A stretch of 51,261 nt of DNA from Rubripirellula sp. (GTDB lineage: Bacteria > Planctomycetota > Planctomycetia > Pirellulales > Pirellulaceae). Under the pieces are notes generated by a model that did no database searches, was not told the origin of the DNA, and saw only the letters and a program-made list of their open reading frames with translations. The number at the start of each line of letters is the position of its first letter. Position 1 is the first letter of the stretch. The DNA lies in assembly GCA_028823035.1 (NCBI GenBank), contig JAPKCI010000014.1, forward strand, positions 1-51,261. The letters are read 5' to 3'. Made by a program: the position numbers and the translations under genes. This document shows, in pieces, positions 26,952-33,091 of the stretch.

Positions 26952-27884
26952 TCAGTCGTTGCTGAAAATCGTATGTGTCTTGTGTAGATCAATGTGGTAC
27001 CGGTGGCAGGTCGTGCAATTGTCACCATTGGCATGGGGGCGGTGGCAGTCGCTGCACGCATCCCGGGTCAACGGCAGGAAGTCGAGGCTGCCGACGTGCG
27101 TGTCCACAGCGACGTTGCCGGTGTGAGCCTCCGTCGGCGTTTGGTGATCAGCGACACGGTGACAATGCTTGCAGTTTGAAAGTTCGGCTACATTCAGATG
27201 GGATAGATGCGTGAATTTTGTGAATTGTCTGGCATTGGATAGTGGTCTGCTTCGCCACTCACCAGGGGTGCTGATGGCCCCTGGGTGACAAGCGAGGCAA
27301 GCGGCGACTGCACGATTTTTCAGCAAACGATCCCTGACGGCCATGCCCTCTGGTAGTTGTCGAATCACATCAATCATCGATTTTAAAACCGGATCGTCAT
27401 GACCTGCACCTCGGTATCTTATCGCCAAACGGATCTCGTTGTGGAACCAGTCACCCGCCGGCTGCATCTCGTCGGCATCGAACGTCTGACCAGACGATGA
27501 TCCCTCGCTTGATGCTGGTGTGATGCCCGTCAACGGGTCACTCGCAAGCGGGGCTTCGTCGGATGGCTTTTCAATCTCGCTCAAGGAGTCGTCTGACAAC
27601 CGATTCGATTCAGGCAGGTCGGAAGCATCGAGCGGGGAACTGAGGAGATCGTTGGAGTCACTGTTGCTCTGACGCCCAGTCGTCTCGTCCTTGTTTTGAA
27701 GGGGATTTGGTGCCAGTTGGCCGTCGGGCGGAGTCGTTGTTGAGAACCAGGCCTGTCTTGCCTCATCGACCAATTGCGGGGACAGGGGGCGAAGCAGCAT
27801 TCTGATACTGTTGGGTGTCACCCCCAGACGTTTGGAACGGTTGATCAAGGCGGGATGGTCTTGGCTGGAAATTTCTGTGATCAA
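26952..27884 (-). CDS. tetrahaem c-type cytochrome, N-terminus broken
   Basis: The open frame (310 codons) carries four CXXCH haem motifs: CLACH in the middle, then CKHCH, CSDCH and CTTCH near the C-terminus. An acidic, Ser-rich linker lies between about residues 55 and 125. It should carry electrons outside the cytoplasmic membrane, yet the frame itself begins at a TTG without signal or anchor. The missing membrane helix lies upstream in the same frame, beyond two stop codons (see 27885-28070). It is the last gene of the electron-transfer operon that includes the b-type-cytochrome-like and ferredoxin genes. Cofactor type is firm; donor and acceptor are unknown. Confidence 0.82.
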   Translation of the reverse strand: MITEISSQDHPALINRSKRLGVTPNSIRMLLRPLSPQLVDEARQAWFSTTTPPDGQLAPNPLQNKDETTGRQSNSDSNDLLSSPLDASDLPESNRLSDDSLSEIEKPSDEAPLASDPLTGITPASSEGSSSGQTFDADEMQPAGDWFHNEIRLAIRYRGAGHDDPVLKSMIDVIRQLPEGMAVRDRLLKNRAVAACLACHPGAISTPGEWRSRPLSNARQFTKFTHLSHLNVAELSNCKHCHRVADHQTPTEAHTGNVAVDTHVGSLDFLPLTRDACSDCHRPHANGDNCTTCHRYHIDLHKTHTIFSND

Positions 27885-28070
27885 TTGCCGATAACCACGA
27901 GCCAGGGTTTCAGCGGCGGCGATCGCGTGTCAGATCTGGAGTTCAGGGATTCGAAGGCTTCTTTATCCGGAAAAGCGGATGGCCATACAGCCATGGACAA
28001 TTCCGCCCACGACTAGCGCCAGCGTAAGAATGCTGTGAAAGGCGACCCATAAACGTAGTCGAAGTTGCAA
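27885..28070 (-). pseudogene. frameshifted N-terminal anchor of the tetrahaem cytochrome
   Basis: Reading from a TTG at 28070, the frame encodes a membrane helix (LWVAFHSILTLALVVGG) with histidines 14 residues apart, then stops (TAA near 27965). About 30 bases later a second stop (TGA) precedes codons for HAIAAAETLARGYRQL, which run straight into the cytochrome frame. Between the stops a different frame gives natural protein (KEAFESLNSRSD). One extra base near 27961-27970 and one missing base near 27928-27933 explain this. Repaired, the gene would span 26952-28070 and supply the membrane anchor that a c-type cytochrome needs. Confidence 0.68.
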
Positions 28071-28076
28071 CGCGAA

Positions 28077-28784
28077 TTAGTAGTCCAGGTCGTCTCGATG
28101 GCGGACCAATGCGGCGAATTGTCCGGCGGTCCCCCGGTCCTCGCTTTCCAGATGTCGCTCCAGATCCTTCAAACCACTCAGCAGTCGGCGCCGCCGACCG
28201 CCGGTTGGTATCAGCACATAAGACAACGAGGGTCCTGAACTAAAAAATGGATTCAGATGCTCCGTGTAAAAACTGCCAAGCACCGGGATTCCCACGTGGA
28301 CGCTCAATTCTTCCAGCAGGTGCTTGGCGTGATCGGCGATCTGTCCGCGGTGCCATTCGACTCGGTCAAAGCGGTGATGACCCTCTACGGTTGTCAAGCG
28401 TTTTGGCAGAGTTCGTGAGGCGTAGAGCCCATGGAAACCGCTCGCTGTGACCAGAAGAAAGACGATCGAGAGCATGCCCTCAAAGATACCGTTGCCAATC
28501 AGGCTGGGAACGTGCATCCAGTAAACACCTGTCGTAAAGAATCCCATGTAAATGTGGATTTGAGTCCATGTGCTGACACTGCCCAAAGGCAAAATTGGCA
28601 GCCGACGTCGCATGCCGAAAAGTCCCAGCAGCAAGATGCAGGTCAACAGCGTGCCGCCAGTTAGCAGTGAGACATCTGCCAATCGACCCTCCTGTATCCA
28701 GACAATGGCAAACATCATCAGCAGGGCCATGAACGTCGCCACTAAAGCGATTCGACGACGATTGCGGAATGAATGTAAGGGCAT
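28077..28784 (-). CDS. four-helix membrane protein, probable b-type cytochrome
   Basis: The 235-residue protein has four transmembrane helices in its first 130 residues (for example ALVATFMALLMMFAIVW and LLTCILLLGLFGM). Histidines sit in helices three and four (HIYMGFFTTGVYWMH and ASGFHGLYAS). That pattern is expected of haem-b ligands in cytochrome b561 or ferric-reductase-like proteins. The rest is a cytoplasmic or peripheral tail rich in Arg and Glu. It is flanked within a few bases by the ferredoxin-fusion gene (upstream) and the cytochrome c gene (downstream), so it probably links them across the membrane. Haem binding is an inference from histidine placement. Confidence 0.7.
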   Translation of the reverse strand: MPLHSFRNRRRIALVATFMALLMMFAIVWIQEGRLADVSLLTGGTLLTCILLLGLFGMRRRLPILPLGSVSTWTQIHIYMGFFTTGVYWMHVPSLIGNGIFEGMLSIVFLLVTASGFHGLYASRTLPKRLTTVEGHHRFDRVEWHRGQIADHAKHLLEELSVHVGIPVLGSFYTEHLNPFFSSGPSLSYVLIPTGGRRRRLLSGLKDLERHLESEDRGTAGQFAALVRHRDDLDY

Positions 28785-28788
28785 TGAT

Positions 28789-30249
28789 CTAGCTCCGCAG
28801 GTCGAGCCACTCCTGAAGTGGCTTGGACTCGGTCAGGTCAATTCGGACAAGCGCATCGTGGGGGCAGGCCGCCGCACATGCTGGACCTGATGGCAGATTG
28901 CTGCACATATCGCATTTGGTGGCTTTGACAATCGGCAAGTCGGTGGTCATGTCGCGGTAGGGCCGTCCCTGATGATCAAAAACTTCAGCCATGCGAATGT
29001 TGTCATACGGACATGCAGCGGCGCAGGTTCCGCAGCCAACGCAAATGGACTCGTGTATCTGAACGACCCCCGAATCCAAATCCCGTGTGATTGATCCGGT
29101 CGGGCATCCGATCATGCAAACCGGATCGCTGCACTGCATGCAGGCCTGGACAACCTGCAGTCGGTCGTGCGAGAGACCTTGCCGAACGAAACGAGGATTG
29201 CCGTTGTGTGCATCGCCACAGGCTTTGACGCAATCGTCACAGCGGGTGCATCGATGCAAGTCGATGACCATGGCCTGTCGTCCGTTGTTAAGGCGGCTCT
29301 GAACCATGAATTCCAGCAAGCCAGTTTGACGGACCTGTTGGCTGGTCTCACTTGCAATGTCTGGTTCAAGTGCACCGCTCGGTGTCGTTTGACTTGTGTT
29401 CTGATATCGATCGGTTCCTTCGTCCAGTCGCTCTTTGGTTGATTGAAACAGCAAGCTGGCTGTTTTGTCAGGTAGCTCTCTGCGGCGTACATGTGGCAGG
29501 ATGTCAGCGGCAAACGATTCAGCCGGGATGAACAATGCGTCCAGAAAGCCAACCGCTCGCAGCGTGTTCTGTAAACTGAGCGGTGGCGTATTCGCTGGAC
29601 GCACGCTGTTGTACGCAATCTCTTCCAGTCCAAAAACGTGTCCTTTTCCCAAGTAGGCGGTGGTACGGTGCGAAGCACCGTGCTGTTGTGATAGACGGGC
29701 AAATCCACTGCGGATGATGACCAATTCTGTTGGAATGCGACCCGCTTCACAAACAATGGGTTCGGACTCGATCTGTTGCTCAACCGGTAGGGTTCGCGTT
29801 TTCTTGTAGTCCGCGTTCCATTCCAGACGGCCGAACGATCGCATTTGGGTCGCCTTGGCAACACGCATCAGACTGGCTTCGGGCAAATGGCCAAGCAGCG
29901 AAACCTCTCGCAGGTGCACGTTCAACCAGTGTTTGCGATAGTGCATGTCCAAGCTGGCTGCGAAACGTTGGTCATGCCTCAGGATTCGCAATCCTTGCCA
30001 ACGAATCTCCAGAAGAGTCGCTTCGGTTTCCGCGATGACGGTGGCTGTCCGCGGCGACCGGTACATGGCTGCGACTTCGCCAAAAAGTTCGCCGGGTCCC
30101 AATTCCACCGTCGGATGGTCACGTAGCACTGCATTGAAATCCTGCAGAAAGATGGCAGGGCGGTCATCAACCTGGCGAATCGTGCTGGATGGATGATCGG
30201 ACGAATCTAAAGTCGTGGTCACTTCTTCGGGATCACGCGACTCGACCAC
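28789..30249 (-). CDS. cyclic-nucleotide-binding/four-cluster ferredoxin fusion, C-terminal part
   Basis: The 486-residue frame starts inside a cyclic-nucleotide-binding-like domain (LGPGELFGEVAAMYRSPRTATV) and continues with a second such domain (about 110-250). It ends in a ferredoxin domain with four cysteine groups: CTRCDDCVKAC, CMQCSDPVCMIGC, CVGCGTCAAAC and CDMCSNLPSGPACAAAC. The ferredoxin arrangement is like DmsB/NrfC-type electron-transfer subunits, with four 4Fe-4S clusters. Fusion to regulatory domains implies that a nucleotide or other ligand gates electron transfer. The first domain's start lies in another frame just upstream (30219-30680). Whether the domain really binds a cyclic nucleotide is uncertain. 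Confidence 0.83.
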   Translation of the reverse strand: MVESRDPEEVTTTLDSSDHPSSTIRQVDDRPAIFLQDFNAVLRDHPTVELGPGELFGEVAAMYRSPRTATVIAETEATLLEIRWQGLRILRHDQRFAASLDMHYRKHWLNVHLREVSLLGHLPEASLMRVAKATQMRSFGRLEWNADYKKTRTLPVEQQIESEPIVCEAGRIPTELVIIRSGFARLSQQHGASHRTTAYLGKGHVFGLEEIAYNSVRPANTPPLSLQNTLRAVGFLDALFIPAESFAADILPHVRRRELPDKTASLLFQSTKERLDEGTDRYQNTSQTTPSGALEPDIASETSQQVRQTGLLEFMVQSRLNNGRQAMVIDLHRCTRCDDCVKACGDAHNGNPRFVRQGLSHDRLQVVQACMQCSDPVCMIGCPTGSITRDLDSGVVQIHESICVGCGTCAAACPYDNIRMAEVFDHQGRPYRDMTTDLPIVKATKCDMCSNLPSGPACAAACPHDALVRIDLTESKPLQEWLDLRS

Positions 30250-30680
30250 ATCTGAACGGCGAAGAAAGTGACGCAGAGCCTGGAACCAAGAGAGCTTTTG
30301 CGGTGTGGAGCGTCCCCGTTGGCCGGGTCCAATGAATCAACAATGAGTTTGGTGCTGCCTGCTATCACCAGAAAAGCACTGCTCCCATAGTCCCCCTCGC
30401 GAACAATGATCTCGCCCGGTTCACATCGCTTGATTCGACAATCGTTTCGAAGGATCCCTTCCAGCGGAATGGAGCGTGGAAAAGACCTGGCATCCATGCT
30501 TGCAAAGGGTTCGCGAGAGCGTAGCCACAAGACGTCTGCATCTGCCATCGACGCATCCATCGGTTCGCTCCATCTTTGCGGACGGCGCACGGCGAAGGAA
30601 TCTTCCACTTCCATAAGAAGAATCCGTACCGAGATTGAGTGGAGAACGTCAAGACGAACCGGGGAAATTTGAGCCCGCAA
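30219..30680 (-). pseudogene. N-terminal half of the first cyclic-nucleotide-binding domain, frameshifted
   Basis: This frame encodes a leader, then RCEPGEIIVREGDYGSSAFLVIAGSTKL, the first strands of a cyclic-nucleotide-binding domain, and then loses protein character before a stop at 30219. In the frame of the downstream gene, the preceding codons read PQKLSWFQALRHFLRRSD and continue into it. One missing base near 30295-30315 therefore splits a single gene. The ATG at 30614 is a better start than the TTG at 30680. The repaired protein would have about 600-630 residues. Confidence 0.72.
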
Positions 30681-30985
30681 CAGGGCCCACGAAGCTTATG
30701 TTTCAGTTGCGTTTTTCTAACAATTTTCCCCTGATGGCTCAGGAATTAGCCGAACGGGGTGCGGGCTGGCAGGTTCCCGTTACCCCTCCTGTCCAGCGGC
30801 GAAAAATCAACCAAACTAAGTGCTTTGACTGAATGCCATGTGATTCACTGTCTGCCGGTCGTTCCCTTCGGTGGCGATGCGATTGGCGGTCTGCAGTGTG
30901 GGCTGTGGTTCGGTGGTGGGTTTCAGTCCGAAAGACTCTTTTTAAAGCCGCTTCATTAGCGACAACCCAACAGGGCGTGACTCAC
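30681..30985. other. divergent intergenic region
   Basis: This 305-base stretch separates the minus-strand electron-transfer operon from the plus-strand phosphofructokinase gene and should hold both promoters. The frame upstream of the phosphofructokinase ATG is open from 30833, but its sequence (Trp/Arg-rich) is unlike the family and I do not include it. No hairpin or known RNA was seen. Confidence 0.5.
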
Positions 30986-32143
30986 ATGGCAGATGATTTA
31001 AAAGCAAATGGAATCGCTGCAGAGTTAGATGAACGTCCAAGAATCGGGATTTTGACTTCCGGTGGCGACTGCCCTGGCCTGAACGCAGTCATTCGTGGTG
31101 TGACCAAATCTGGATGTTGGCTTGGTTATCAAGTGATTGGATTTCAGAATGGCTTTGAGGGGCTGATTGATCCGATCCAATGTCAGTTGCTCACGCTCCA
31201 ATCGACCTCCGGAATCCTGGTGCAGGGTGGCACTATGCTTGGATCGACGAACAAGGGTCGCTTTGGTGCTCGCGTTGGTAAAGATGGGCGAGCCGAACTT
31301 GCCGATGGAATATTGGACCAGGTGCGAGCGACCTTTGACCGTTTCCGACTGCAGGGGTTGATTGTCGTGGGTGGTGATGGCTCGTTATCGACCGCCTTGC
31401 AATTTCACGAAGCGGGGTTGCCAGTCGTCGGCGTTCCCAAAACGATTGACAACGACTTGTCATGCACTGCATACACGTTCGGATTCAACAGTGCGGTTCT
31501 TTGTTGTGCTGACGCGTTGGATCGTCTTCATACGACTGCTGCGAGTCACGGCAGGGTGATGGTGTTGGAGGTGATGGGACGGCATACGGGTTGGATTGCC
31601 CTGTATGGTGGTATCGCCGGTGGCGGTGATGTGATTCTGATCCCTGAAGTTGCTTGGACGTACGATAACATTGTTGCAAAGATCGACGAACGGACTCGGA
31701 TGGGCAAGAACTTTACGCTGGTGGTTGTCGCCGAGGGCGCAGAGTTGCCAGATGGGGCGGTTGTTACTCAGGAGTCGCAGAACCTGCAGAAAAAATTGGG
31801 GGGAATTGGTCAGATCCTAACGGAGGAATTGGATCAACGAATCGATCAGGATGTGCGTTGCGTAGTACTTGGTCACTTGCAGCGGGGGGGTGGTCCGACA
31901 ACCTTTGATCGGGTTCTGTCGAGCCAATATGGGGCGCATGCGGTTCGCCTGATCGTTGAGAAGAAATTCGGCCAGATGGTCTGCTATGATCCGCCGGATA
32001 TTCTGGACGTATCCATCGAGGCTGCTGTCGGCGACTTGCGAACAGTTGATCCTCAAGGTTCCGCCGTCCAGACCGCAAGGGCGATGGGGACCTGCTTTGG
32101 TGACACACCCGGTTACGTGAATCCTTTTTCGGCAAACCCATGA
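30986..32143 (+). CDS. 6-phosphofructokinase, G/K-type signature
   Basis: This enzyme phosphorylates fructose 6-phosphate in glycolysis. From the ATG at 30986 (385 residues; AGGGCG 11 bases upstream) the protein has GGDCPGLNAVIRG, VVGGDGS (Gly132, equal to position 104 of E. coli PfkA), PKTIDND (Lys152, equal to 124) and MGRHTGW. Gly at 104 predicts ATP use, while Lys at 124 is typical of PPi-dependent and group III enzymes, so the phosphoryl donor should be tested. It stands at the head of a plus-strand pair with the oxidase-subunit gene, 74 bases away. Confidence 0.93.
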   Translation: MADDLKANGIAAELDERPRIGILTSGGDCPGLNAVIRGVTKSGCWLGYQVIGFQNGFEGLIDPIQCQLLTLQSTSGILVQGGTMLGSTNKGRFGARVGKDGRAELADGILDQVRATFDRFRLQGLIVVGGDGSLSTALQFHEAGLPVVGVPKTIDNDLSCTAYTFGFNSAVLCCADALDRLHTTAASHGRVMVLEVMGRHTGWIALYGGIAGGGDVILIPEVAWTYDNIVAKIDERTRMGKNFTLVVVAEGAELPDGAVVTQESQNLQKKLGGIGQILTEELDQRIDQDVRCVVLGHLQRGGGPTTFDRVLSSQYGAHAVRLIVEKKFGQMVCYDPPDILDVSIEAAVGDLRTVDPQGSAVQTARAMGTCFGDTPGYVNPFSANP

Positions 32144-32217
32144 CAGTTTCCTGCCGGTTAATGGAGCTTCCTTGCTGCGGTTCAAGATAGGTCAGGTTCT
32201 CGATAGACGGATGATTA

Positions 32218-32835
32218 ATGATCTTTTTCAGGACTTCGCAACTGCAAAAGTCGAAAACGATTTTGCCGAGTGACAAGCAGCATCATATTGGTGGCATGCT
32301 GTTCCTCCTGTCGTTGGTCATTTTTTTTCTGAGCAGCATTTTGCTGTATGGGATCTATGCCTACTCGCGCCGTGGCGATCCGCAGTCCGCCACTCCCTTG
32401 CCGTCGATGTTCTTGATCAGTACTGCGTGCCTGCTGGTTATCAGTGGTCTCGTGCATGCAGCGACGCGAACGATCCGCCGAGAGAAGCGTCTTGCAACCA
32501 GCCTTTTGCTGCTGATCAGTGGCATCACAGCGGTCATTTTCATGGGCATTCAGTTTGATGCGATGAGTGAGTTTCTGGCAGGCCCCGCACTGGATGGCGG
32601 CACGGGTAAGGGGGTTGCAGGAATGGTGGTGGTTTTAGTCGTGCTGCATGCCGCTCACGTGGTGGGTGGGGTGATCGCTTTGGCCGTTGTTTCGATTCGC
32701 TCGGGGTTGGGGCGTTACGATCATGAACGACACTGGCCGGTTGACTTTGCGGCCCAGTACTGGCACTTTCTTGATCTGGTGTGGCTGTGCATGTTGTTAG
32801 CGTTCTGTCTCACTACGGGTGGTTTTGTTCTTTAG
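32218..32835 (+). CDS. haem-copper oxidase subunit III-like protein
   Basis: The 205-residue protein has about five hydrophobic helices and the C-terminal pattern HWPVDFAAQYWHFLDLVWLCML, which is characteristic of subunit III of cytochrome c or quinol oxidases. Subunit III has no redox centre and supports stability and proton uptake of the complex. This is the short five-helix type. Subunits I and II are not in this window, which is unusual because the genes are normally clustered. The final codons and the stop lie within the first copy of a 25-bp tandem repeat. Confidence 0.85.
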   Translation: MIFFRTSQLQKSKTILPSDKQHHIGGMLFLLSLVIFFLSSILLYGIYAYSRRGDPQSATPLPSMFLISTACLLVISGLVHAATRTIRREKRLATSLLLLISGITAVIFMGIQFDAMSEFLAGPALDGGTGKGVAGMVVVLVVLHAAHVVGGVIALAVVSIRSGLGRYDHERHWPVDFAAQYWHFLDLVWLCMLLAFCLTTGGFVL

Positions 32836-33020: not shown

Positions 33021-33091
33021 GCGGGTGTAGTTCAATGGTAGAACATCAGCTTCCCAAGCTGGATACGAGGGTTCGATTCCCTTCACCCGCT
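33021..33091 (+). tRNA. tRNA-Gly (anticodon CCC)
   Basis: A complete cloverleaf: acceptor stem GCGGGTG/CACCCGC, D-arm with GTTC...GAAC, anticodon stem TCAGC/GCTGG, loop TTCCCAA (anticodon CCC, reads GGG), T-arm GAGGG-TTCGATT-CCCTT, discriminator T. CCA is not encoded. It stands alone, and a T-run follows directly (33091-33097). Confidence 0.95.

Follow-up and report, generated by a model that had tools for sequence, protein, structure and literature searches.

A broken copy of a widespread planctomycete gene set for a possible electron wire under cyclic-nucleotide control

What do three successive coding stretches on the minus strand of a planctomycete contig encode, and can the genome that carries them still use them? 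The stretches, here called A, B, and C, lie at positions 26952-30680 of the window (the whole stretch of DNA analyzed, 51,261 nucleotides of Rubripirellula sp. contig JAPKCI010000014.1). An earlier note on the same DNA had read them as three genes, for a ferredoxin with cyclic-nucleotide-binding (CNB) domains, a membrane protein with haem b ligands, and a tetrahaem cytochrome c. Judged from its sequence, the window copy of A-B-C is a pseudogene cluster in which all three genes are broken, and the gene set itself is real and widespread in planctomycetes. Our best explanation, to which we assign a joint probability of roughly 0.6, is that the window holds a copy of a planctomycete electron-transfer complex that is decaying in the host genome and that the intact complex would act as a wire for electrons from NAD(P)H to the periplasm, under the control of a cyclic nucleotide. 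Within this explanation the electron wire is likely, a cyclic nucleotide as the ligand is on balance probable, and gating of electron flow by that ligand is plausible.

The window copy comprises the following features.

26952..27926, minus strand: 3'-terminal remnant of C, a decahaem cytochrome c, with haems 7-10 (tblastn, residues 379-721 of a 722-aa protein)
27966..28784, minus strand: B, encoding a dihaem b membrane protein, with a stop codon within the frame (tblastn over the whole 273 aa at 84% identity; B profile E 2.4e-86 with one internal stop)
27993..28037, minus strand: codons for the haem b ligands H250 and H264 of the last helix, 3' of the stop
28077..28079, minus strand: premature in-frame stop in B, codon 236, ahead of the last helix
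28512..28556, minus strand: haem b ligands H77 and H91 of the third helix, kept
28789..30333, minus strand: A 3' piece, with the remainder of CNB1, CNB2, and the four-cluster ferredoxin (tblastn, residues 103-615; PF00027 and Fer4 matches; no internal stop)
28864..29250, minus strand: sixteen cysteines for four [4Fe-4S] clusters, all retained in the window
30037..30084, minus strand: CNB1 phosphate-binding cassette FGEVAAMYRSPRTATV (Glu kept in 62 of 62 and Arg in 58 of 62 proteins of the family alignment)
30324..30680, minus strand: A 5' piece, with the N-terminus and the first half of CNB1 (tblastn, residues 2-105 at 30635-30324; DNA alignment)

Gene A is split over two open reading frames (ORFs) in different frames, 30219-30680 and 28789-30249, which correspond to residues 2-105 and residues 103-615 of a single 615-aa protein in the relative at locus L002 (tblastn). 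The frame of the 5' piece ends by a frameshift near 30324-30333. The 3' piece scores 58.7 bits against PF00027 (curated cut-off, 27.5), and the 5' piece alone scores 17.4 bits, under that cut-off. The CNB and four-cluster ferredoxin domains named in the earlier note are thus present, but they do not form the single gene it had described. A programmed frameshift was ruled out, as A is a single open frame in 25 of 26 relatives and B and C are broken too. Genome-wide searches found no second match to A, B, or C in the window genome.

In B, the ORF at 28077-28784 encodes residues 1-235 of a 273-aa protein, and the stop cuts off the last helix with H250 and H264. The histidines H77 and H91, previously noted as placed like haem b ligands, are there; the supposed four-helix protein is a truncated form of this longer one. 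As for the supposed tetrahaem cytochrome, its four CXXCH motifs (at 27285, 27159, 27042, and 27003) are present but belong to the remnant of a protein with ten, and a tetrahaem subunit was ruled out. This remnant covers profile positions 402-704 with an internal stop, has more stops upstream, and lacks haems 1-6 together with the membrane anchor. Against Cytochrome_C7 (cut-off, 24.8 bits) it reaches 21.3 bits, compared with 46.2 bits for C of L002.

The intact gene set was found in many relatives. Among 26 Pirellulaceae loci gathered by a pattern scan (L002-L027), A was present in all (split in L008), B adjoined A in 25, and A, B, and C occurred together in 22, of which 19 had a full-length decahaem C; the contig ends inside C in L008 and L017, and C is in pieces in L007. 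A cultured host, a Rhodopirellula baltica strain (L018), has open A, B, and decahaem C. Across Planctomycetota, A was found in 56 of 392 genomes (E ≤ 1e-30), and from 36 of these 56 we chose by hand one locus each outside the Pirellulaceae set; A, B, and C lie on one strand together in 27 of the 36. The genes thus adjoin in most of the relatives examined, as would be expected of the proposed operon. Of the 56 genomes with A, 54 had a strong match to B (E ≤ 1e-50), as did 2 of the 336 without A (Fisher, 2e-61; Fisher and Poisson values here treat genomes as independent and ignore relatedness). The E threshold for a strong match was picked after seeing the data, at the gap between 7e-53 and 1e-39. 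At E ≤ 1e-10 the B profile, searched against Planctomycetota and plasmids, matched 115 of the 392 genomes, including 55 of the 56 with A, and weaker B-like matches were frequent in genomes without A. The 16 cluster cysteines of A are each kept in 61 to 62 of 62 proteins, and inspection gave no signal peptide for A. No published description of the A-B-C gene set was found by title or abstract in searches of an open-access library.

We propose that the intact complex would work as follows. A, in the cytoplasm, would receive electrons on its four [4Fe-4S] clusters from an NAD(P)H-oxidizing module and hand them on to B. The two haems b of B would be stacked across the membrane, with H77/H250 near the cytoplasm and H91/H264 near the outside, and C, a membrane-anchored decahaem cytochrome c, would take the electrons from B into the periplasm. 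A begins with tandem CNB domains resembling those of protein kinases A (PKA) and G (PKG), the first of which would bind a cyclic nucleotide (e.g., cAMP or cGMP), which in some species would come from a cyclase whose gene adjoins those of the complex. Binding would then open or close electron flow. The earlier suggestion that such genes carry electrons across the membrane under the control of a ligand is compatible with the intact relatives and does not hold for the window, where the genes are broken. The strongest evidence on electron source and ligand is the NADH-oxidizing modules and the linked cyclases, neither of which figured in that suggestion.

NADH-oxidizing modules of two mutually exclusive types are attached in 21 of the 36 loci, and none of the 36 has both. 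An FNR-type NADH reductase, N (FAD, NAD, and 2Fe-2S domains), occurs in 13 loci, and a NuoE-NuoF fusion in the locus together with a HoxU/NuoG-like Fe-S head on A occurs in 8. A tetrahaem c554-like protein, T, lies close to A on the same strand in 18 loci. The HoxU/NuoEF-type system is found in the window genus too (G405 and G417). Of nine Pirellulaceae genomes searched for N, five had a better, unlinked N-like match. A third type of head was found on Sphingobium plasmids (12 of 72,556 records), where A carries a Pyr_redox (pyridine-nucleotide-disulphide-reductase) head and is accompanied by a relative of B (E, 1e-14) and a ten-haem C. The latter matches PF16697, an FHA-type fold, below its cut-off and gave no match to the Pirellulaceae C profile, so it is assigned as C from its haem number, domains, and position. 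The attachment of three unrelated NAD(P)H-oxidizing heads to the same socket is our main reason for reading the complex as an NAD(P)H-linked wire.

Two loci of the window genus (L126:3771-12242 and L127:1996-10296) hold this second system, parallel to that of the window, in the order B, a decahaem C, T, a NuoE-NuoF-like gene, and A with a HoxU-like head (Pfam, L126).

The cofactor ligands of B and C are strongly conserved. H77, H91, H250, and H264 are invariant in 53 of 53 B sequences, and a further count of the paired-histidine layout gave 25 of 25. Two helices that each carry a pair of histidines about 14 residues apart are the usual layout for two haems across a membrane, as in cytochrome b, b561, and NADPH oxidases. 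A model of B (mean predicted local distance difference test [pLDDT], 71) shows five long helices; the third holds H77/H91 and the last H250/H264. The positive charges of the loops suggest that H77/H250 would lie at the cytoplasmic end. In intact C, ten CXXCH motifs and ten other histidines are invariant in 21 proteins, a number that would be enough for bis-histidine ligation of all ten haems.

Ahead of its membrane anchor, the N-terminal part of C (e.g., L002:10372-10560) has at least four cysteines in 9 of 14 listed Pirellulaceae proteins and just 0 to 1 in L011, L012, L016, L018, and L019; these cysteines are a possible metal or docking site.

Comparison with known systems brings out the alternative that competes best. 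In formate dehydrogenase-N (FdnH/FdnI) and with the DmsB/NrfC/HydN ferredoxins, as in A-B, four [4Fe-4S] clusters presumably pass electrons to a dihaem b protein. HydN, AegA, PadI, DsrO, and NrfC are among the best matches of A in NCBIfam. Nevertheless, A reaches only 61.3 of 260 bits against HydN, far under the curated cut-off, and exceeds no named equivalog cut-off among the best 25 of 71 families. The A-B-C set differs from the formate dehydrogenase-N type in its CNB domains and decahaem c partner, and no molybdopterin subunit turned up in the domain scans made. Quinone-reactive dihaem b proteins include FdnI, NarI, and CbcL, and a complex of this kind, in which B would trade electrons with menaquinone, A would be an arm to or from the quinone, and C would be a separate outlet, is a serious possibility that we nonetheless consider less probable than the NAD(P)H-to-periplasm wire. 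Weak Pfam matches among 25 members of the B family, to cytochrome b561 in 7 and to ferric reductase in 8, are in keeping with a quinone-linked B; the NAD(P)H-oxidizing modules on the cytoplasmic side are compatible with either reading. Neither the window B nor that of L002 has a Pfam match.

The CbcL/MtoC/MtrH type of Geobacter and others also joins a multihaem c to a HydC/FdnI-like dihaem b in the inner membrane, as A-B-C would, and CbcL itself is described as a single polypeptide that combines nine haem motifs with six helices (passages in PMC6295460). By contrast, where a locus has both B and C, each has a gene of its own. Neither "4Fe-4S" nor "cyclic nucleotide" appears as a term in the text of that paper (PMC6295460). 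Among systems with an Fe-S, membrane, and multihaem c architecture, A-B-C shares its plan with NrfBCD, Hmc, and DsrMKJOP. The NrfD-like subunit has 8 to 10 helices. Unlike these NrfD-type complexes, the A of the present set is without a signal peptide and its B has five helices in the model (four hydropathy stretches), with no NrfD family among the 18 families matched by its 25 members. Finally, the NADH modules have counterparts in complex I NuoEFG, HoxEFU, and NqrF- and BenC-type proteins; here they sit on a CNB ferredoxin and haem proteins rather than on a quinone or hydrogenase module.

The ligand question turns on the first CNB domain, whose pocket is conserved: the cassette (FGE...PRxAT) keeps its Glu in 62 of 62 proteins and its Arg in 58 of 62. 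The cGMP-dependent kinases characteristically have a threonine following Pro-Arg, and its presence in CNB1 makes cGMP a candidate ligand. When a model of A (pLDDT, 61; CNB region mostly 70 to 90) was compared with the PDB by Foldseek, nearly all of the top 50 matches listed were PKA regulatory subunits or PKG. TM-scores were low (about 0.2 by query and mostly ≤0.4 by target), so the match concerns the domains and not their placement. Like the PKA regulatory subunit and PKG, A has two tandem CNB domains with the canonical cassette in the first; unlike them, its CNB domains precede a ferredoxin in place of a kinase partner.

Of the 36 loci, 4 (L059, L073, L074, and L079) have a class III cyclase gene next to the cluster, with 0.40 expected from the number of such genes in the 36 genomes (P = 8e-4). 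At L079 the cyclase is 3' of B and C on the same strand, facing A. In genus g10, with at most three candidates scored per genome, a second cyclase lies about 2 kb from A in all seven genomes with A, and the two genomes without A have one cyclase match each (Fisher, 0.03). The window genome has one PF00211 match, away from the locus. A CpdA/SpdA-like phosphodiesterase gene lies 3' of C in the two Sphingobium regions viewed of the 12, and a search of the ORFs of L002-L027 and L057-L092 gave none like it.

Ser/Thr protein kinase genes lie near the cluster in both f58 loci (L069:1519-3282 and L070:12237-14000), and the linked cyclases of L073 and L074 carry FHA domains, which hints at phospho-signaling around the system.

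A number of results weigh against a gated NAD(P)H-to-periplasm wire. With respect to the electron path, 15 of the 36 loci have neither NADH module type tested, the modules tested are absent from all 26 Pirellulaceae loci, and four of the nine Pirellulaceae genomes searched for N (G392, G393, G401, and G403) show just a distant NqrF-like match. L004, L005, and L010 have A and B without C, and A at L026:7626-9311 is a lone 561-aa gene, with neither B nor C adjoining it and C unmatched in the rest of that genome; from these gene contents, A may act without the complete wire. The hydropathy count of B gives four stretches, not five, with the H77/H91 helix under the threshold. A fold search of the PDB with the B model returned no match at E ≤ 0.001, and a profile search of PDB sequences with B gave weak matches only, resembling coiled-coil noise. 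In the A model, the ferredoxin region is poorly predicted (pLDDT mostly <50). With respect to the ligand, the four cyclase-linked loci represent about three lineages (P = 8e-3 counted as three), and the Sphingobium phosphodiesterase is below both curated cut-offs and scores better against a 2',3'-cyclic-nucleotide enzyme.

Three further results of this kind would also be expected if the CNB domains were just a structural or docking scaffold on an ungated electron wire: the CNB1 Arg is replaced by His or Gln in 4 of 62 proteins; the CNB2 cassette is lost in the subfamily of the window and in its relatives of the N-T-A-B-C type (most of the distant group L077-L092 retain a recognizable one); and no linked cyclase was found at any of the 26 loci of the Pirellulaceae, the window's own family. 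However, the retention of the CNB1 Glu and Arg across very distant members, the excess of linked cyclases over expectation, and the tandem fold like that of PKA and PKG argue for a bound ligand, and we regard an ungated wire as rather unlikely. Reversed flow, with low-potential electrons entering from the periplasm at C and reducing NAD(P)+ inside, also seems unlikely. All of the carriers are reversible in principle, and NuoEF/HoxU-type heads operate in both directions in hydrogenases; the position of T beside A bears only weakly on direction either way.

Second messengers are known chiefly for their action on transcription, kinases, and channels. We tentatively suggest, at somewhat less than even odds, that here a second messenger binds the electron-carrying subunit itself and switches electron flow across the membrane, that some lineages supply their own cyclase, and that A-B-C is a redox counterpart of PKA and a socket for three unrelated NAD(P)H heads. 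If true, respiration or extracellular electron transfer would be switched fast and post-translationally by a cyclic nucleotide that acts directly on an electron carrier, in a phylum about whose electron chains little is known. With its linked cyclases, exchangeable NADH heads, and cultured host, the system is directly testable.

Decay of the window copy is evident when it is compared with its surroundings. The flanking ORFs of relatives each align to the window in one piece (11 of 11 in L002, L003, L004, and L005; 8 of 8 in L010; 2 of 2 in L006), whereas in the same comparisons A is invariably in two pieces and C is partial wherever present. Eight of these flanking alignments have window stretches that include stops, located on inspection where the relative's mechanical ORF overruns the open window ORF. 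By codon counts, the control genes G, PFK, and COX3 have no internal stops in the window and B has one. The lesions of A, B, and C are of three different kinds.

Loss is also seen among sister species. L004, L005, and L010 have open A and B frames and no C ORF. L010 keeps a 5' remnant of C and the window a 3' remnant, from which C has probably been lost at least twice. Among the 22 genomes of the window genus, A was matched in 17 and full-length C in 8 (G404 of these with a stop flagged); G408, G409, and G411 have full-length A and no C match, and C of G417 has several stops. The nonsynonymous divergence of A and B relative to PFK was 3.3 and 4.2 in L004/L005, where C is lost, and 1.4 and 1.2 in L002/L003, where C is kept; with synonymous sites near saturation in most pairs, this comparison is just indicative. 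A and B in L004/L005 show few amino acid changes relative to synonymous divergence. That the window genes are intact and functional and their breaks are errors of a draft assembly is very improbable: the genome is a draft of 523 contigs, and a single-base frameshift could be such an error, but three kinds of lesion are confined to A, B, and C while the flanking genes align whole, three sister species are without C, and C of G417 is itself interrupted.

A COX3-like gene and a divergent phosphofructokinase-like gene (named by inspection) adjoin the operon at 30833-32835, in an order kept in L002-L006 and L010. Beyond them, a tRNA-Gly gene (ccc) lies at 33021-33091, the sole tRNA gene detected in the window.

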